A stretch of 64,000 nt of DNA. Source: Ammoniphilus oxalaticus. GTDB lineage: Bacteria; Bacillota; Bacilli; Aneurinibacillales; RAOX-1. The notes beneath the pieces were generated by a model. It made no database searches and was not told the origin of the DNA. It saw only the letters and a list, made by a program, of their open reading frames with translations. Of the stretch, positions 3,875-46,997 are shown piece after piece (position 1 is the first letter of the stretch; every line of letters starts with the position of its first letter). The position numbers were made by a program, and so were the translations under genes. The stretch lies in NCBI RefSeq assembly GCF_003609605.1, contig NZ_MCHY01000006.1, forward strand, positions 310,001 to 374,000, written 5' to 3'.

Positions 3875-3909
3875 ATAGATACAGTAAGGTTTTGAGGAAG
3901 GTGGATCGT

Positions 3910-4824
3910 ATGATGGAAGACGACAGTTATCCGGATGAACCAAAAGAAAGAGTCGACCATGATCGCTTATTCAAAGAGTTAATTGGGACGTTTTTCGAGG
4001 AATTTATGTTACTGTTTTTTCCAAAAGCGTATGAATCCATTGATTTCGAACATACCGTATTCTTGTCAGAAGAATTGTATACCGATATTGTAAAAGGCGA
4101 AAAAAGGCGGGTTGATCTCTTGGTCGAAACACGTTTAAAAGGCGAACAGGCTTTGATCATTATTCATGTCGAGCCTCAATCCTACGTTCAACCTGACTTC
4201 CAAGACCGAATGTTCGTCTACTTTAGCCGATTGTATGAAAAATATCGCAGAAAAATCTTACCGATCGCAATCTTCAGCTACGATAAAAACAGAGATGAAC
4301 AGGACACGTTAGACATCTCTTTTCCCTTTTTCGACGTGATGAAATTTCAGTATTTAAAAATTGAATTAAAGAAGCAAAACTGGCGCGACTATCTGAAACA
4401 GGATAATCCAGTTGCAGCTGCGCTTCTGAGTAAGATGGGATACACCGAAGATGAACGGGTAAAAGTAAAGGTAGAATTTCTCCGCATGTTAGTTCGACTC
4501 GAACAAGATCCAGCGCGCACGCAACTACTCACAGGTTTTTTTGAAACGTATTTAAAATTATCAAGACAAGAAGAACAACAATTCGAACAAGAATTGAACA
4601 AATTAAAACCAGAGGAGGCCAAACAAATGATGGAGATTACAACCTCTTGGCATAAAAAAGGTAGAGCAGAAGGTAGAGCGGAAGGCCTAGCAGAGGGAGT
4701 AGCAAAAGGAAAAGCAGAAACTGCAAAAAACATGCTGATGATTGGCATGGATAAAGAACTGATTGCCAAAGTAACAGGACTGAGCAAAGAACAAATCGAT
4801 AAATTACAAAAAGAATTGCATTAA
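3910..4824 (+). CDS. Rpn-family recombination-promoting nuclease / putative transposase, copy 1
   Basis: PD-(D/E)XK nuclease-like protein of 304 residues. The core shows VDLL (D69) and IIHVEPQS (E88-x-Q90) in the expected spacing. A long helical region leads to a repetitive GRAEGRAEGLAEG segment and a C-terminal EL(I)AKVTGLSKEQI helix typical of the Rpn/YhgA superfamily. These proteins cleave DNA and stimulate RecA-independent recombination in E. coli; function here is inferred. I place the start at ATG 3910, because AGGAAGGTG (3895-3903) is the ribosome site and lies inside a longer TTG-started frame. A near-identical copy sits at 12124-13050. Confidence 0.85.
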   Translation: MMEDDSYPDEPKERVDHDRLFKELIGTFFEEFMLLFFPKAYESIDFEHTVFLSEELYTDIVKGEKRRVDLLVETRLKGEQALIIIHVEPQSYVQPDFQDRMFVYFSRLYEKYRRKILPIAIFSYDKNRDEQDTLDISFPFFDVMKFQYLKIELKKQNWRDYLKQDNPVAAALLSKMGYTEDERVKVKVEFLRMLVRLEQDPARTQLLTGFFETYLKLSRQEEQQFEQELNKLKPEEAKQMMEITTSWHKKGRAEGRAEGLAEGVAKGKAETAKNMLMIGMDKELIAKVTGLSKEQIDKLQKELH

Positions 4825-12088: not shown

Positions 12089-12123
12089 ATAGATACAGTA
12101 AGGTTTTGAGGAAGGTGAACCGT

Positions 12124-13050
12124 ATGATGGAAGACGACAGTTATCCGGATGAACCAAAAGAAAGAGTTGACCATGATCGCTTATTCAAAGAGTTAATTCG
12201 GACGTTTTTTGAGGAATTTATGTTACTGTTTTTTCCAAAAGCGTATGAATCGATTGATTTCAAACATACTGCTTTCTTATCTGAAGAAGTGTATACCGAT
12301 ATTGTGCAGGGCGAGAAACGACGAGTTGACCTGTTGGTCGAAACACGTTTAAAAGGCGAACAGGCTTTAATCATTATTCATGTCGAGCCTCAATCCTACG
12401 TTCAACCTGACTTCCAAGACCGAATGTTCGTCTACTTTAGCCGATTGTATGAAAAATATCGCAGAAAAATCTTACCGATCGCAATCTTCAGCTACGATAA
12501 AAACAGAGATGAACAGGACACCTTAGACATCTCTTTCCCCTTTTTCGACGTGATGAAATTTCAGTATTTAAAAATTGAATTAAAAAAACAGAATTGGCGC
12601 GACTATCTGAAACAGGATAATCCCGTTGCAGCGGCATTACTGAGCAAAATGGGTTACGCCAAGGATGAACGGGTAAAAGTAAAGGTAGAATTTCTGCGCA
12701 TGTTAGTTCGACTTGAACAAGATCCAGCGCGAACGCAACTACTCACAGGATTTTTTGAAACGTATTTAAAGTTATCAAGACAAGAAGAACAACAATTCGA
12801 ACAAGAATTGAACAAATTAAAACCAGAGGAGGCCAAACAAATGATGGAGATTACAACCTCTTGGCATAAAAAAGGTAGAGCAGAAGGTAGAGCAGAAGGT
12901 AGAGCGGAAGGCCTAGCAGAAGGTAAAGCAGAAGCAAAAGCAGAAACTGCAAAAAACATGCTGATGATGGGCATGGATAAAGAACTAATTGCCAAAGTAA
13001 CCGGACTAACTAAAGAGCACATTGAAAAATTACAAAAAGAACTGCATTAA
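12124..13050 (+). CDS. Rpn-family recombination-promoting nuclease / putative transposase, copy 2
   Basis: 308 residues, near-identical to the copy at 3910-4824, with VDLL and IIHVEPQS nuclease motifs intact. It differs by scattered substitutions near the N-terminus (RTFFEEF, SEEVYTDIVQGEKRRVDL) and by one extra AEGR unit in the repetitive tail region, so the tail repeat has expanded by slippage. ATG 12124 is chosen for the AGGAAGGTG site upstream. Both copies appear functional. Confidence 0.85.
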   Translation: MMEDDSYPDEPKERVDHDRLFKELIRTFFEEFMLLFFPKAYESIDFKHTAFLSEEVYTDIVQGEKRRVDLLVETRLKGEQALIIIHVEPQSYVQPDFQDRMFVYFSRLYEKYRRKILPIAIFSYDKNRDEQDTLDISFPFFDVMKFQYLKIELKKQNWRDYLKQDNPVAAALLSKMGYAKDERVKVKVEFLRMLVRLEQDPARTQLLTGFFETYLKLSRQEEQQFEQELNKLKPEEAKQMMEITTSWHKKGRAEGRAEGRAEGLAEGKAEAKAETAKNMLMMGMDKELIAKVTGLTKEHIEKLQKELH

Positions 13051-15693: not shown

Positions 15694-17698
15694 TTGTTGA
15701 AGAACAACTTAAAATACAATGAAGAAGTTAAACCCAATACTGCTTTTATAAATGAATTAAGAGGAAAACTTCCACAATTTTTTACTGCGGACAAATTCGA
15801 TGAAGAAGGGAATTTGGTAGAGGAAGGAAATTTTGATCTAGATAAATTCCAAAGAATGCTGAAAGATAAAAATATCGAAGAACTGTCCAGTGGATATCAA
15901 TTAGATTTTATCGGGAAAGACTATGCAAAGAAACAAGCGGGTGAGTTTGCTAAAACGGTCATAGTTCCCGACCTTGATCATAATGGACTAGCTGAGAATA
16001 GAAATAGTAAGAACTTGTTTTTTACAGGGGATAATTTAGAGGTATTGCGCCATCTTCAAAATAATTATAGCCAATCTATTGATATGATTTACATAGATCC
16101 TCCTTATAATACAGGTTCGGATGGATTTGTTTACCCCGATAAATTTGAATATAGCGACCAAGCATTAAAGGATATGTTTGGGATGAGTGATACAGAGCTA
16201 GAGCGTTTGAAAAGTATCCAAGGAAAAGCTACACATTCAGCGTGGTTAACATTTATGTACCCAAGACTATGGTTGGCAAAGAGGCTACTTTCTGAGAAAG
16301 GTATAATTTTTATATCTATTGACGATAACGAACACTCGAATTTGAAGTTGATATGTGATGAAATTTTTGGAGAAATATCTTATGTTGGGAGTATTGGATG
16401 GGAATCAAAAACAAAATCACAAAACACAAAAACGTCTTTTGATAAATTACAACCTAAGATAGAAACTATATTGGTATACTCTAATGTTACAGTCAATCAT
16501 TTCAATTTAATTGTTACTGGTGAAAAAGAATATCCTTTTACAGATAAGGATGGAGTTTATAGAGAATATGTGTTGGAGTCAATGAGTTCTGAAGGGACTC
16601 GAGGTAGAAATACAATGATCTTTGACATCGAGGGAATAAGTCCTCCAGAAGGGATGCAGTGGAAATTAGGAAAAGATTCAATTGAAGAATACAGGAATAA
16701 AGGAAGTTTAAGCATAAGAGAAGGGAAAATAATTATTAAAATTAGACCTAATGAGGAAAAAAACTATCAAACCGAGCCATTTTGGGGCTTTTTTTCTAAA
16801 TCTATTGGTACAGCCGAAACTGCAAAAAGGGAATTAAATCAACTGATGGGAATTAACGGGTTGTTTGACACAGTTAAACCTTCTGCATTGGTAAAAAGGG
16901 CTTATTTTTCATGCTTCTAATAAAAATAGTATTATATTAGACTTTTTTGCGGGATCAGGAACAACCGCTGATGCAGTCATGCAATTAAATGCTGAAGACG
17001 GTGGAAATCGTCAGTATATTATGGTTCAACTTCCTGAAATGACATATCTCCTCGATAATAATGGAACAAAGGTTCCAAATAAAGGGGGCGAATCTGCCTA
17101 TAATTCGGGCTATATGTCTATAGACCAAATGAGCCGTGAGCGGATTAAAAGGGCGAGTAAAAGAATTCAAGAAGAAGCTGGATTAGCATTACCAGAACAC
17201 TTTGATGGTGGGTTTAAGCATTATTATGCTGTGGCTCCTGAGCAACCTACACTAAATGATATTGAATCATTCGATATCGAATCGGGGTTATTTGTAGATA
17301 ATAGTGGACAGTTAGTCAACTTATTAGAAAGCGGATTCGATGATATGATTCAACCATTTTCGTCGGAAGGGTTAAAGGTAAAGGGGAATGCTAGCGGTGT
17401 CGATACGATTGTGACAACATGGCTCGTAACCGATGGGTATAAAATGGATGTGCAAGCGGAAAGTCTCGACATTGCCGGTTACAAGGCTGCTTATATTGAA
17501 CAACACCGATTATATTTAGTTCTTCCTGAATGGAATGCAGAGCAAACAAAAACACTCTTAAATTTAATCGGAACTAATCAACTAAGTCTTCAAACGATTG
17601 TATTGTACGGCTACTCATTTAACCTAGAAAGTGTTCGTGAACTTGAGATTGGTTTAAGACAACTCGATAGCAGAGTCAATCTGATAAAAAGGTATTAA
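15694..17698 (+). pseudogene. Type III restriction-modification methyltransferase (Mod), frameshifted
   Basis: N6-adenine methyltransferase and specificity subunit, split by a frameshift at the T5 tract 16905-16909. The first part (408 codons, to 16920) has the catalytic DPPYNTG (135-141). The second frame resumes at CAT 16910 with HASNKNSIILDFFAGSGTTA, the AdoMet-binding motif, and runs to 17698. Catalytic motif before AdoMet motif is the expected beta order. One T too many, or two too few, explains the shift. Truncated Mod lacks AdoMet binding, so modification should be off unless slippage restores the frame. TTG start with AAGGAG upstream. Sequencing error is an alternative. Confidence 0.9.
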
Positions 17699-17715
17699 GG
17701 AGATAGGCATAAAAG

Positions 17716-20685
17716 ATGAAAATCTTATTAGAAGAACTACCTCACCAAGAAGAAGCTCTAAGAGCGATAATGGACAGTTTTACGGGCATAGATCATGCCT
17801 CCACTGATCCAAATGCGGGAGATGTGTATGCTAACCCTCTAATTCTCGGAAGATATCATGAATCATCTAATATTGATGTCAAGATGGAGACGGGGACAGG
17901 TAAAACATTTGTCTATACTAGATTGATGTATGAAATGCATCAGCAATACGGAATCTTTAAATTTGTAATAGTTGTCCCAAGTCCAGCAATAAAGGAAGGA
18001 ACGAAAAATTTTATCCAAAGCGACTATGCAAAGCAATACTTTGCTCCCATTTACGAGAATGCCAGGATTGAACTAAATGTTATCAATGCGGGAGATTTCA
18101 GAGCGAGATCTGGGCGGAAAAATTTCCCTGCGCATCTGCTTAATTTTGTTGAGGGAAGCAGACAAAATTCTAATACAATTCAAGTGCTATTGATCAATGC
18201 AGGCATGTTAAATTCTTCAAACATGAAGAAAAATGACTATGATCAAACATTAATGGGAGGCATAACAAGTCCAATACAAGGGATTCAGAATACTCGTCCG
18301 ATCGTAATTATTGATGAGCCACATCGTTTTCATCGGGATAAGGCAAATTATCGAGCGATTGAAACGATTAATCCCCAGATAATTGTTCGTTTTGGAGCTA
18401 CCTTTCCCGATACCACGATAGGGAGAGGAAAAAACAAGGTAATAAAAAAAGATTATTATCGTGGAAATCCGCAATTTGAATTGAATGCTATAGATAGTTT
18501 CAACAACGGCTTAGTCAAAGGGATTGATATTTACTATCCTAACTTAACAGAAGAACAGGCAAAAAATCGTTATATTATAGACCGTGTTACTGCGAGAGAA
18601 TTGGTGCTCAAACAAGGTAGTAACAATTGGGAACTGCGTGTTGGCGATAATTTAGCCGAAGTGGACTCTGGATTTGAAGGAAACATTGAATATGCCGGCT
18701 CTAGATTGTTAAGCAATGAATTAGAGCTTGCCAAAGGGATGATTTTAATCCCAGGAACGTATCGATCTTCCTATCAAGAATTGATTATTAGGGATGCGAT
18801 TGATAAGCATTTTGAAATTGAGCAGAAAAATTTCTTGAGAAACGGTGCTAGAGATAATAATGAGCCGAAAATCAAAACGTTAAGTTTGTTTTTTATTGAT
18901 AATATAAATAGTTACCGTAAAGAAGACGGTTGGTTAAAGGAAACTTTTGAGCGTTTATTGAAAGAAAAACTATCTCGATTAGTCTCAGAATATGAATTTA
19001 AACGTTTACCAAGAGAACAAGAGTATCTAGAATTTTTAAGGGCAACTCAAATAAGTCTAGCTCTCGGAGACGACAAGCAAAATGTTCACGCAGGTTATTT
19101 TGGTGAAGATCGTGGTTCAGGTGAAGAGGCAATTCAAGCGCAAGTTGATGATATATTGAAAAATAAGGAAAAGTTACTTAGCTTTAAAAATGACAAGGGA
19201 GATTGGGAGACAAGACGCTTTCTATTCTCAAAATGGACGTTACGCGAAGGCTGGGATAATCCTAATGTTTTTGTAATCGCTAAATTACGAACATCCGGTA
19301 GTGAAAACAGTAAAATACAGGAGGTTGGGCGTGGATTACGACTCCCCGTCGACGAAACAGGAAAGCGAGTTCAGCAAGATGAATGGCCATCTAGACTAGC
19401 TTTCTTAATTGGGTATGATGAAAAAGATTTTGCAAAAAATCTTGTAGGTGAGATCAATAGTGACGCCAAGCTTCAATTGAACGAAGAAAAGTTAACAGAT
19501 GAAATGATTACCTTAATAGTTACAGAGCGTCAGAAAACAGATTCAGCATTTACAGATGAAATATTACTTGGGAATTTGGATGAGTTGGGCATAATCAATC
19601 GTAAAAATGAATTTAAAAAGGCTGTTGAAATAGATGGTGTTCAGAAAGATGGCTTTGTATGGTTGGTTGAATTGTATCCCGAATTGAACACCACACGATT
19701 ACGGGAGGGTAGAGTAGATGAACCGCAAAACTCTCAAACTAAAACCCGAGTGAAATTAAGGAAAGAAAACTGGGAAAAAGTAAAAGAACTTTGGCGGCAA
19801 TTTTCGAATCGCTATATGTTGAAATTCGAGCGCATCCCTCAGACGATTCAACAGATGGCTGATGATATCGTTGGTAATGCAGAATTATATGAACGGCAAG
19901 TTCCTATACAAATACATGAATCTGTATATGCAAGCGAAGATAAGAAGAGTGTTGGGTTAAAAGAAAGAGATGGTGAATATGAACTAATTTATTTACCTGG
20001 AATGTCTTACGGAAAATTCGTTAAAGCCATTCATACGGCGACAGGTATTCCTGTTAAAGCCATTCATACAAATTTATTTCGCGTGATGAAATCTGATTTA
20101 CGAGGCGACTCAAGATACTTAAGTGAAGTGTCGTTGCAAAATATAACACGTGAATTTAAGAAGCGTTTTGATGAAGTATTCGCGCAGACTTACGAATATA
20201 AAAAATTAGCTTTTCAAGCGCATACATCTCTTTACAATCCTGACACGGATAGTTTTGTAGATGATCTAAATGCAGAAATTCTTGGTGTTAATATAGATCA
20301 TCAAGCGATTGAAGACGGTCGTTACCTTTATGAAGTTCCACCAATGAGATATGACAGTGTGACGCCAGAAAGGGAACTACTGAGACATGATTATCATAAG
20401 AGGGTAACTGTCTTTGGGAAATTGCCAAGAAGAGCTATTCAAGTGCCCAAATATACGGGTGGCTCTACAACTCCTGATTTTATTTATATGATTGAAAAAG
20501 AAGACGACACAAATGTGTATTTGCTTGTAGAGACAAAGGCGGAAAATATGAGGATAGGTGATCAACGTATTGTAGAAGTTCAAAAGAAATTCTTCGAAAA
20601 TTTAAAAGAGAATGCTGTTGAATTTGAAGAAGCCACTAGCGCGCAACAAGTCTATTCGGCTATTAGAAAACTAGCAGAAGAATAG
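17716..20685 (+). CDS. Type III restriction enzyme, Res (helicase-endonuclease) subunit
   Basis: 989 residues, full length. Superfamily 2 helicase motifs: METGTGKTF (Walker A, about 58-65), IIDEPHRF (198-205), [11 protein letters not shown] and [10 protein letters not shown] (motif VI). The C-terminal nuclease shows TPDF (D921) and LLVETKAEN (E939-x-K941). AAGGAGAT lies before the ATG, 17 bp after mod. Res needs Mod to recognise DNA, so with mod frameshifted it should be silent rather than toxic. The mod-res pair is visibly more A+T-rich than flanking housekeeping genes, as expected for acquired DNA. Confidence 0.95.
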
Positions 20686-42209: not shown

Positions 42210-42422
42210 TCCTAGATGAATAGGTACTGTTTGAAGAAGTTTGGGAGGGCGGTTAAACAAAAAGAAATTGGAGCTTACGCAAATGATTACAATGTTGGGG
42301 TTTCTATCTGTAATTGAATCGTTCACAATACTAGCTGAATGCGCGTTGAGCGTCAAGTGAAGAGGGGAAGTGATTTTCGAAGGGTCTTTTGCTCCCCTGT
42401 TTCACTTGAAATTAGTCAATCT

Positions 42423-43913
42423 TTATTCTAAAAAGAACGCGTCTAAATCATCATCGTCTTTTAGTATAGTTTTCTGATCGACACCAAGTTCCACAGCCAA
42501 GTCTATTGAAGCCGCGGCTAAAACCGCCGCATTCATGTTGGAATCAAAAGCGGCTTCGATGAGTGTGTTGTAGCGCGTGTAGGTGTCGTTTATTTTTGCG
42601 ATGATTTCTTGATAAGCGCTTTCGATTGTTTCGAGCACGGAAAAAACATAGGCGTTTAGCGTTTGTTGGACCTGATGCTCCTTGTGGCCGAGTTGATCTT
42701 TTGCGAATCCCCACACGATGTTGGCGGTGATGGTTCCTAAAATTGCGCCTAGAATCGGCACAGGGATTAGGGTTTGTCCGATGGCGCCGCCAATCGCCGC
42801 GATGCCCGCTTCTAAGCAGAGAATCTGACCTTGCGCTACAAAGTCATCCGTTGAAATCTTGTCTCTTTTTAGGTTGAAAATCAACAAGGATAATCCAGCG
42901 GCGGCGCTTGTAACAGCCCCAGCAAAGGGAGCGGAAAGCGATGTTATGTTTATTAACGTGTAGATACTGCCTGCGGTGACCCCTCCTTTGGCGCCGACCA
43001 CGGCGGAACTTAGGCCAATATCTTTCCAATCTTCTTTATCGAATTGATTGAGCTTCTTTCCCGCTTTTACTTTACGATAGATGACAGTGAGTGTGTTCAA
43101 TCCTGCCGCAACGACGACAGCCGCTCCCGCAACCTTTAATCCCTCGCCAACCGAGGGGCCTTGTTTGGATTCGATTCCCTTCGTTTTTTCCCTTGCATCC
43201 TGTTCAATTGATTCTAAGACTTTTTGGTTTTCGTCTGCCAACTGACTCTCATGTCTGGAGACGGTCTCTCCAACTTTGCCAAGTTGTACATCATCATAGG
43301 TAGAAATAGAAGGTTTGATAACATCCTCAAAGCTTCTCCCTGTTCGAAATTCAATTTCCTCAACTTTTTCTAAAATGGCTTGAATCGAGCGACTATGCAA
43401 CTGTTCAGGATCATGAGCAGCTCGGATGGTTGAAATGACTTCGAACTGGTCCTTTGGAATGGAATAATTCATTGTTGTGTCTTCATACTTATTGAAATGG
43501 TCCAATACATGCTTCAACGTGTTGTTCGTCCCGTTTATAAACTTAGACTGATAGTTAACCCCGTCCAAAATAAAATCTTCAGGCGCGGTTCTGCCTACGC
43601 CTTCAAATGTGGCGACTTCACCTTCTCCATTTAATACAGACCAAGCATTCCGCGCGTTAACTTCCAAGTGTTCAGCTATTTCCCCATGCTTTGCCTTCTC
43701 TGAACCGAGGATTGCTCCCGGTTCAGAGAGGAATTGGCGCATGCGCATCATATGTGTCAACGCTTCTTCAAAATAATGATCTTGTTGATCGAAAGATGCC
43801 ATTTTTTCATTTACGATTTGATCCAATTGGCGGGCGATGGAACGGTTTTTCCATTCGTTAAATCCATCGACTCCAGCGGCGATGAATTGATCTTTCCAAA
43901 CGTTTGTCGCCAT
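42423..43913 (-). CDS. Large hypothetical protein with Ala/Gly-rich hydrophobic domain (second gene of a coupled pair)
   Basis: 496 residues, unrecognised. An N-terminal 250-residue helical, soluble part is followed by hydrophobic, small-residue-rich segments: VAGAAVVVAAGLNTLTVIYR (about 260-280), SAVVGAKGGVTAGSIYTLIN and SAPFAGAVTSAAAGLSLLIF (about 300-350), and IAAIGGAIGQTLIPVPILGA with ILGTITANIVWG (about 376-410). A helical tail ends in an acidic DDDDLDAFFLE. Its ATG directly follows the TAG of the upstream gene with no gap. The layout suggests a membrane-inserting protein held soluble by its N-terminal part; this is inference. Confidence 0.7.
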   Translation of the reverse strand: MATNVWKDQFIAAGVDGFNEWKNRSIARQLDQIVNEKMASFDQQDHYFEEALTHMMRMRQFLSEPGAILGSEKAKHGEIAEHLEVNARNAWSVLNGEGEVATFEGVGRTAPEDFILDGVNYQSKFINGTNNTLKHVLDHFNKYEDTTMNYSIPKDQFEVISTIRAAHDPEQLHSRSIQAILEKVEEIEFRTGRSFEDVIKPSISTYDDVQLGKVGETVSRHESQLADENQKVLESIEQDAREKTKGIESKQGPSVGEGLKVAGAAVVVAAGLNTLTVIYRKVKAGKKLNQFDKEDWKDIGLSSAVVGAKGGVTAGSIYTLINITSLSAPFAGAVTSAAAGLSLLIFNLKRDKISTDDFVAQGQILCLEAGIAAIGGAIGQTLIPVPILGAILGTITANIVWGFAKDQLGHKEHQVQQTLNAYVFSVLETIESAYQEIIAKINDTYTRYNTLIEAAFDSNMNAAVLAAASIDLAVELGVDQKTILKDDDDLDAFFLE

Positions 43914-44762
43914 CTAATTGCCGACTTCCTTCATGAACAACCGAGATAGGCTCTGGGTGTTATTAATGATAGACATGAGCGCATGACGCTCGTTTTCTGA
44001 AAAGGAAGGGTAAGAGTTCTGTTTTGTCTCGTTTGTAAAGGAGCATAAGGCTTGATCAAGCTGGGCTGCCAAAGAATGAGTAGCGGCATTTAAATGATTG
44101 ATTTCATGTGATGTGGCGTCCAACGTTCTTCTTGCTTTGACAATCTTCATTCGTTCTTGGCCCGCTTTTAAAGCCGCTTCCTTATTCTTTTTGCGCGCAA
44201 ATAAACCGCCCGCGACTAAACTAGCGGCCCCGATGCCCCAGCCAACTGGACCCGCCAACGCAAGTAAGGCGCTACCGCCAGCCATACCTCCGCCGCCCGC
44301 GGCAAGAGCTCCGCCACCTAACCAAGCTAAAGCCGCATTCGTTGCGGCGGCGCCCGATAAAGTGGAAATAGCGGCGCCAGTTGAAGCGGTCCCAAATGTC
44401 GTCGCAATAGCCATTGCTGCCGTTGGAGCAAACGCCGCTGTTGCGACCCCCGCGGCAACGCCGACTGCGGAGCCTCCACCAGCTAACTTGATCATTTCTT
44501 TTTCATCATACGAAATTTCGCTTAGCGCTTTAAAACTTGCTAGATTAATATGTACTTCGTAAAAGTATTTCTCAAATTCCTTCGGCGTATTGGCCAACTG
44601 ATTCACGTAATCTTCAACTTTTTGAATGATACTAACGCTGTAAACACGTGTGTCATGTAACTCGATCGCGTCGTTTTCGACTTTTCTGGCGGAGTATTTG
44701 TACTCTTCCAATGCTTGTTCTAGTCTTGCGATTGCGTCTTTCTTTAGTGAATGATTTAACAT
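43914..44762 (-). CDS. Hypothetical protein with glycine-zipper-like hydrophobic domain (first gene of a coupled pair)
   Basis: 282 residues, unrecognised. N-terminal helical part (about 1-95), then a hydrophobic Ala/Gly block: GGSAVGVAAGVATAAFAPTA, AIATTFGTASTGAAISTLSG, AALAWLGGGALAAGGGGMAG and LLALAGPVGWGIGAASLVAG (about 103-195). A charged ARKKNKEAALK coiled coil and helical tail follow. I remember the GTASTGxAIS..GAA..NAxLAWLGGGALAAGGGGM motif from uncharacterised proteins in variable gene islands. GGGGGT precedes the ATG. Promoter TTGTGC-17-TATAAT upstream. Confidence 0.7.
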   Translation of the reverse strand: MLNHSLKKDAIARLEQALEEYKYSARKVENDAIELHDTRVYSVSIIQKVEDYVNQLANTPKEFEKYFYEVHINLASFKALSEISYDEKEMIKLAGGGSAVGVAAGVATAAFAPTAAMAIATTFGTASTGAAISTLSGAAATNAALAWLGGGALAAGGGGMAGGSALLALAGPVGWGIGAASLVAGGLFARKKNKEAALKAGQERMKIVKARRTLDATSHEINHLNAATHSLAAQLDQALCSFTNETKQNSYPSFSENERHALMSIINNTQSLSRLFMKEVGN

Positions 44763-44805
44763 CGTTGGACCCCCTGGTTAGCAAATTACAAAATGAATAC
44801 TTTAA

Positions 44806-44834
44806 ATTATAAACGAACACAACGATGGGCACAA
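44806..44834 (-). promoter_or_regulatory. Promoter of the two-gene hydrophobic-domain operon
   Basis: Minus strand TTGTGC (44834-44829), 17-bp spacer, TATAAT (44811-44806), 44 bp before the start codon. Confidence 0.6.
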
Positions 44835-45386: not shown

Positions 45387-46997
45387 TTACATTCCCAGAC
45401 CCATTTTAATCATGACATAAGCAAGGACGCCGACGAATCCGGCTTGCAGTATGGTGTACACGGATGTTTTGGCTAAGATCGCGCCTTCTTGTCCAGCCAA
45501 ACCAGATACACCCGCGCCTAAGGCGGCGTTGCCTGGAGCGAAAGCATTGGCGAGCGTTGCCCCAGTCGTTTGAGCGCCCAAAATAATGAAGGCGGACATC
45601 CCGAGAATACTTGCTACCTCATATTGCAAACTGGTAAACAGAATGTTCGAAGAGGTGCATGAACTCGTGACAAATGCGCCGATGACCCCAATTTGCGGGG
45701 CAAGCAGCGGGAAGAAACTTCCGGTTGCTGTTGCAATCCCATAGGCAAGATATGTCGTCATTCCTCCGACTGTCATGAGTACCGCCATCATCGTCATGGA
45801 AATAATAGTGGCAGATGACCCCGCGGATTGTCTTACGGTTTTAGTCCAAGCATCTTTCATGGCGCCTTGAGGTAAGAGACCCTTCGATTTGTAGAACCAG
45901 GCGGCAAGGAAAATGGAAATTAAAATCAAGGTCCCTGGCATCGTTACGATTTTCAATGCTGAGTATTTCGCTTCGGCGTCTTGGATATAACCAAACAACG
46001 TTGTGGTTTCTCCAAAGGGAAGTCCAACCTTGAATGTATCCAGAAAACTTTTGATCGGTTTGATTAGGTAAACGACGAATACAACGCCAACCATAATAAT
46101 ATAGGCCGAGAAGGCAGTGATAAAAGATTTGCCCGCGACTTCAGGGTCTTCCTTGATCGGTGGCGCATCCGTTGCTGGCCGATAGGCTTTCAGTTTAGGT
46201 AACACAAAGCTTCCGACCACTAGCCCAGCGGCTCCGGCTACGAAACAACCAAGGTTTGGCGAAACGAAATTAACGACAAGCACAAGCGTTCCGCTCATCA
46301 CGACGGACATGAAGAGAACAGCGACGAAACCTTCTTTAACGGCTTTAAATCCGCCATAGTTGTGAACGACACACCACCCAATCATTAATCCGCCAAAAGC
46401 GATCATGAGGGAGGCCCAGAAAGCCATTCCATCAGGGTCGACTGGACTTAATCTTGGCAGAACGGAATAAGACGATCCAAGCGAACCAAACGTAATTCCC
46501 CAAGAGTGTCCAAGCAATGCGGTCACAACCGCTTTAATCGGACTAAATCCGAGTCCAATTAAGAGGGGAGTCACTACTGCAACCGGAACTCCGAAACCGC
46601 ATACCCCTTGAATAAATGTTGGGAACGCCCAACCAAGAATCAATAATTGCAACATCTGATTTCCGTTCGTTAATCTTGTAAAGGTAGCGGCAATAACTTT
46701 AAAGCTTCCTGTCAAATCAACGACGTTATACATGTACATAGAGGTCCAAACGATCGATAGAACAAAAATCGTTTCCCAAATCCCCTTTGCTGTACCGCTG
46801 AGGAGCACGTCGACTCCGCCTCCAAACGCAAAATACGTAACGGCCAAGCCGATGACCCAAGAAATGACACCCGCTCGAGACCCACTCATTTTAAAACCCA
46901 TCATCAGAGTAAGTACGACAATAATTGGAAGCGCAGCCATCATCCATGTAACGAATGACATTTCCGGAAGGCCTGCGACCGACATATCAATACCCAT
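45387..46997 (-). CDS. lctP: L-lactate permease (LctP family)
   Basis: 536 residues with about 13 hydrophobic segments; symports lactate (or glycolate) with protons. Family landmarks: WAFPTFIQGVCGFGVPVAVV, TALLGHSWGITFGSLGSSY and QIGVIGAFVTSSCTSSNILF, all intact. AGGAGGTATGATG lies before the ATG. No lactate dehydrogenase or lut genes are adjacent. Confidence 0.93.
   Translation of the reverse strand: MGIDMSVAGLPEMSFVTWMMAALPIIVVLTLMMGFKMSGSRAGVISWVIGLAVTYFAFGGGVDVLLSGTAKGIWETIFVLSIVWTSMYMYNVVDLTGSFKVIAATFTRLTNGNQMLQLLILGWAFPTFIQGVCGFGVPVAVVTPLLIGLGFSPIKAVVTALLGHSWGITFGSLGSSYSVLPRLSPVDPDGMAFWASLMIAFGGLMIGWCVVHNYGGFKAVKEGFVAVLFMSVVMSGTLVLVVNFVSPNLGCFVAGAAGLVVGSFVLPKLKAYRPATDAPPIKEDPEVAGKSFITAFSAYIIMVGVVFVVYLIKPIKSFLDTFKVGLPFGETTTLFGYIQDAEAKYSALKIVTMPGTLILISIFLAAWFYKSKGLLPQGAMKDAWTKTVRQSAGSSATIISMTMMAVLMTVGGMTTYLAYGIATATGSFFPLLAPQIGVIGAFVTSSCTSSNILFTSLQYEVASILGMSAFIILGAQTTGATLANAFAPGNAALGAGVSGLAGQEGAILAKTSVYTILQAGFVGVLAYVMIKMGLGM

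Follow-up and report, generated by a model that had tools for sequence, protein, structure and literature searches.

The PDC-M09 gene pair of Ammoniphilus oxalaticus, a candidate two-component defense system with a predicted nuclease-like domain and a conserved Gly/Ala block

Two adjacent genes of Ammoniphilus oxalaticus, called A and B here, are by profile match the two components of the candidate defense system PDC-M09, and a role of the pair in defense is likely. In PADLOC-DB the A protein matches PDC-M09A (PDLC04407; E 1.2e-114, residues 1–280 of 282) and the B protein matches PDC-M09B (PDLC04409; E 8.6e-184, residues 4–495 of 496), and nothing material separates the pair from the catalogued system. 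Our tentative reading of how it works, which we rate at a little under an even chance, is that B is a membrane-anchored nuclease and that A is its membrane sensor, switch or pore partner. PDC-x entries are candidate systems that are unpublished (PMC11811056), and the public part of PDC-M09 consists of its name and its models; literature searches did not find PDC-M09 named, nor any paper that describes the pair or tests it against phages. What is new here relative to the catalog is the reading of the domains, namely an E-D-QxK site in B, membrane modules, and a conserved Gly block in A. The original prediction, made from the DNA alone, called the two proteins unrecognized, and this holds for Pfam and NCBIfam, where neither A nor B has a significant family (nor, in Pfam, does any member of the two family alignments, 69 B proteins included), but not for PADLOC-DB with its two full-length matches; its statement that the two partners occur together in no known system must be replaced, since the pair is a catalogued, if uncharacterized, candidate.

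The gene pair and its surroundings

In the window (the whole 64,000-nucleotide stretch that was analyzed), gene A (282 codons) occupies bp 43914–44762 and gene B (496 codons) bp 42423–43913, both on the minus strand. The predicted reading frames and the zero-base junction between them were verified on the sequence; the TAG stop codon of A (43916–43914) is followed by the ATG of B (43913–43911) with 0 bases between. A ribosome-binding-site-like AGGGGG (44770–44775, minus strand) lies 7 nt 5′ of the ATG of A. The promoter that had been predicted for the pair was not borne out, as the upstream DNA has at best 9 of 12 consensus matches and most of the promoter-like sites of the region are intragenic. 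Just 3′ of B, at 42350–42420, there is a long inverted repeat (TCAAGTGAA..AGGGGA / TCCCCT..TTCACTTGA) that has no T-run and may be a terminator or the end of an element.

The genes that flank the pair encode a DinG-like helicase, a small lipoprotein-like protein and a lactate-permease-like transporter, and of these the helicase gene alone is matched at the equivalent position in the three closest genomes, so the pair lies in a variable stretch. By sequence, the genes nearest to A and B in the window are ordinary ones and include no dynamins. The lactate-permease-like gene (45387–46997) has five more copies elsewhere in the genome, with 71–74% identity. Some 22 kb away from A and B, the window has genes of a type III restriction-modification system (PADLOC REase_III, E 0; MTase_III, 4.9e-137); their location, 15694–20685, follows from ORF order and sequence rather than from a per-gene scan. 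Two closely similar copies of a 310–314 amino acid protein, encoded at 3892–4824 and 12106–13050, share the N-terminal sequence LRKVxRMMEDDSYPDEPKERVDHDRLFKELI and perhaps belong to a transposase-like PD-(D/E)XK family.

Predicted domains of the B and A proteins

The AF2 model of B (mean pLDDT 84.7) consists of a helix, a nuclease-like domain, a membrane bundle and C-terminal helices. Residues 64–160 (bp 43434–43724, minus strand) are the most conserved part of the protein (0.67, compared with 0.39–0.54 elsewhere, in 69 B proteins) and form a predicted PD-(D/E)XK-like domain. Here the model has a helix at residues 75–94, strands near 101 and at 114–116 and 119–123, a helix at 129–143 and a strand at 149–152, mostly with pLDDT ≥90; judged by the order of elements only, this is an alpha-beta-beta-beta-alpha-beta arrangement in which the fitting elements carry E81 (43671–43673, helix 1), D113 (43575–43577, at strand 2) and the QxK motif Q122-S-K124 (43542–43550, strand 3; all minus strand). 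E, D and QxK in such a core are the hallmark of the Mrr (QxK) type of PD-(D/E)XK nucleases. Residues H76, G77, E81, D113, Q122 and K124 are unchanged in all 69 B proteins across phyla, and the spacing from D113 to Q122 is always 9. Even in 32 distant B-like proteins that are otherwise diverged, the E, D and K are present in every one, and the Q is present in 30 and replaced by S in two.

From these invariant residues and the predicted fold order we infer that B is probably a nuclease. The cautious name PD-(D/E)XK-like is used because profile and fold searches gave no significant nuclease match. An hhalign comparison of B with Mrr_cat has a probability of 0.4% and is not significant; its single aligned stretch does pair the QxK strands. 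A fold search with full-length B (Foldseek/VIA) returned no nuclease of note, and a sequence search of the PDB with B gave chance-level matches (best E 0.026, to toxin translocation domains). B shares with Mrr-type enzymes the E-D-QxK residues and the order in which its helices and strands are predicted, but it differs in being fused to a membrane bundle.

The predicted membrane bundle comprises B residues 251–410 (42684–43163, minus strand), where the AF2 helices span 255–407. Hydropathy peaks of moderate height lie at 261–279, 330–348 and 382–400, and an invariant PxPxxGxxxG turn is found at 384–393. Residues 254–385 superimpose on yeast Tim17 (8e1m_A) with Z 6.8 over 125 residues at 4.2 Å, a value within the chance range for helical bundles, and other Tim17/Tim23 and complex I B14.7 chains also match loosely (Z 5.5–6.8). 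Homology with Tim17 was rejected, as the fold match is tied with unrelated helical chains and the Tim17-family PRAT motif occurs in none of the 69 B proteins; the modeled likeness possibly reflects a common helical arrangement only.

Distant B-like and A-like genes are adjacent in six Bacillota loci (L145, L149, L150, L152, L153 and L154). One class of B-like proteins (L009/L014) keeps the membrane half and has a different N-terminal half, which by eye is suggestively HNH-like in sequence and has a weak match to PDC-M40B (1.8e-5) and none in Pfam. B-like genes at L146:6345–7844 and L147:6507–8006 likewise join a different N-terminal half, HNH-like in appearance, to this membrane module, and they adjoin a gene for a large Gly/Ala-containing A-like protein. 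In Enterobacterales (Enterobacter and E. coli), B is followed by one more gene, of about 840 codons, which repeats the E-D-QxK pattern (L042:11468–13990, L052:11459–13978, L100:3471–5993 and L211:18328–20850). In E. coli ET729 (L212), IS1 interrupts this third gene but leaves A and B intact; the third gene is therefore probably optional.

The A protein is built around a Gly/Ala membrane-insertion-like block at residues 93–189 (44196–44486, minus strand), which in the AF2 model lies between long helices at 4–97 and 186–275 (pLDDT <50 at 93–169). All 97 residues of the block are free of D, E, K and R, whereas no such run longer than 49 arose when the protein was shuffled 2000 times with its composition kept. 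Conservation in 65 A sequences is 0.78 in the block and 0.87 in its core (110–175), compared with 0.43–0.45 in the flanking arms, which is expected if the block does the work in the membrane. Both proteins had been predicted to have soluble helical ends around a long block of small hydrophobic residues, and a switch from soluble to membrane-inserted form had been proposed. This description fits A, in which the block is the most conserved region of the family; B, on the other hand, has a mixed alpha/beta domain in its N-terminal part, and its longest charge-free run (39 residues) is not exceptional against shuffled composition. A PDB sequence search with A gave coiled coils only. A BFVD fold search returned only tape-measure-like long helices, to which no meaning was given.

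The layout of A, with long helices and a hydrophobic block between them, agrees with the helical bundle and tongue of ClyA-type toxins in the AF2 model, and Foldseek searches with A recurrently returned pores of this type (AhlB, SmhB, ClyA and YaxAB) at non-significant values (E 0.08 and worse). Together with a weak match of A to LeoBC of Eleos in PADLOC-DB (E 2.5e-6), these features favor an abortive-infection pore, in which A, perhaps with B, would on infection form a ClyA- or JukB-like helical pore that depolarizes the cell or a phage compartment, and the B domain would serve as a sensor or be a nuclease fold without activity. JukA homologs, so assigned by number and YaaW-like sequence, lie directly 3′ of B in four Burkholderiales loci (L059, L064, L077 and L088), which points the same way because JukB, the partner of JukA, forms pores (PMC13282480). 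However, residues E, D, Q and K of B never vary, which is hard to explain without catalysis, and related systems have exchanged the N-terminal half of B, so that a pore alone, the main rival reading, is a possible but rather unlikely function. The pore-former or glycine-zipper toxin of the original prediction thus keeps its Gly/Ala block in A, but a pure pore toxin is not the simplest reading of a pair whose second member has an invariant E-D-QxK site.

Distribution and genomic neighborhoods

A single-sequence scan of genome contigs found no relatives, and a search with an alignment as query gave 218 confirmed matches, of which the best 80 loci were analyzed. The matches listed come from Bacillota, Pseudomonadota, Cyanobacteriota, Bacteroidota, Chloroflexota and other phyla, and the alignment search also gave six strong matches on viral contigs. 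Plasmid copies are present in Niallia (64% identity), Klebsiella (46 plasmids), Leptolyngbya, Lactococcus and Actinomycetota. In 77 of the 80 listed loci, gene A lies upstream of B at a distance of no more than 600 bases, mostly −4 to +20, and the pairwise distances of the A and B proteins are correlated (Mantel r 0.76, permuted maximum 0.22), a correlation to which shared host descent contributes. This adjacency and co-divergence bear out the coupled two-gene unit that had been predicted and indicate an obligate partnership; neither lone, scattered homologs nor homology to a housekeeping family turned up.

Within groups, full-length B is rare, being found in 3 of 398 Bacillota genomes and in 5 of 5426 E. 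coli genomes. The B tree is mostly phylum-coherent (5 changes, compared with the least possible 4); frequent transfer across phyla is therefore not seen, and the family is old, its history being one of repeated loss or local transfer and not of continual exchange among phyla.

The neighborhoods of the pair are of the defense type. The 137 immediate neighbors have PADLOC matches in 91 families, compared with 19 for 136 control genes, a rough comparison in which families rather than independent genes were counted and the control set was from Bacillota only. Among these families are WYL (7), JukA (4), MTase_I and BrxE, and JukA-like genes are found in four or five of the 80 listed loci. In E. coli PSJ-29 and Z226-5, a module of a WYL gene, A, B and the 840-codon gene is carried in an integrase element at tRNA-Thr/proA, along with a gene for a SIR2 protein; McrBC lies beside the pair in Leptolyngbya, and in Lactococcus the pair is between two dynamin genes. 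A conserved Gly-rich membrane protein of 165–190 amino acids is encoded directly after B in seven gut Clostridia loci (L061, L070, L076, L078, L083, L084 and L094). With the PDC-M09 match, these neighborhoods agree with the conflict or defense role that had been predicted; overall, the earlier interpretation survives in part, its defense role, its pairing and the block in A being supported and the novelty of the partners and the layout of B not.

Klebsiella plasmid copies adjoin ter operons, and several of the distant Bacillota pairs adjoin a TerB-like gene (so labeled by eye), which could indicate a function in envelope stress or Ter-type membrane maintenance that is unrelated to phages. Such a function is improbable, as the presence of the family is patchy, its genes are carried on plasmids and islands, and a link to the inhibition of phages has been made for ter operons, too. 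Least probable, and very unlikely, is that the two proteins are a toxin pair used between bacteria or on contact, with a domain of the translocation type: B residues 367–448 weakly resemble toxin translocation domains, and on the Niallia plasmid an LXG toxin and its immunity gene are found some 4 kb from A and B, but the translocation-domain profile matches are at chance level, no secretion signal was seen at the N-terminus of A or B, a dedicated immunity gene is absent, no toxin is homologous to A, and the integrase islands, with their SIR2 and WYL genes, favor defense.

A proposed mechanism and related defense systems

The membrane-anchored nuclease reading can be set out as a sequence of steps. 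B would be a membrane-associated nuclease with an N-terminal PD-(D/E)XK-type domain and a Mrr-like E-D-QxK site, and its helical bundle would sit in, or insert into, the cytoplasmic membrane. The obligate partner A would form a long hairpin of helices and, when triggered, would insert its conserved Gly/Ala block into the membrane. Phage entry, or a membrane structure made during infection, would perturb the membrane or bring a phage protein there; A would respond by inserting or by changing its assembly state, and this response would position or release B, which would then cut foreign DNA nearby. The DNA might be met at phage entry or at a phage-made vesicle, and self would be told from non-self by membrane location, not by sequence.

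Known systems offer loosely comparable working analogies, not homologies. SNIPE is a membrane-bound nuclease that cuts DNA during injection, and its tethering spares the host genome (PMC13190303). The likeness to PDC-M09 lies in the proposed logic only, in which a membrane-tethered nuclease meets phage DNA on entry; no homology was detected. SNIPE is a single protein with DUF4041 and a GIY-YIG nuclease, neither of which has a Pfam match in A or B, whereas PDC-M09 has two proteins and a QxK-type domain. In Juk, a sensor recruits pore-forming and other effectors to the phage vesicle (PMC13282480). The JukA homologs 3′ of B in 4 of the 80 listed loci suggest a parallel, but the pair usually occurs without JukA, neither A nor B matches JukB, and an HMM of the JukA-like neighbors found no such gene among the 56 proteins of the window. 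Eleos is a dynamin pair (LeoA/LeoBC), and A resembles part of LeoBC and the Lactococcus pair is flanked by dynamins, but neither A nor B is a GTPase; a P-loop is present in none of the 69 B proteins and in one of the 65 A proteins, where it is not conserved.

More speculatively, and with considerable doubt, PDC-M09 could be the first example of a large group of two-component entry checkpoints in which a membrane partner with a conserved Gly/Ala block works with exchangeable nuclease domains on a common membrane bundle, Mrr-like QxK domains here and HNH-like ones in sister systems. Members of such a group would recognize an infection by its location at the membrane and would cut the phage DNA at that site, in some cases under the direction of JukA sensors. 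PDC-M09 has so far been a database name; with the E-D-QxK site and the Gly block it gains a mechanism that can be tested and residues to mutate. If this mechanism is true, a broadly distributed two-part membrane nuclease would join the few known systems in which location, not sequence, separates self from non-self, and it may account for the means by which some JukA sensors exert their effect.
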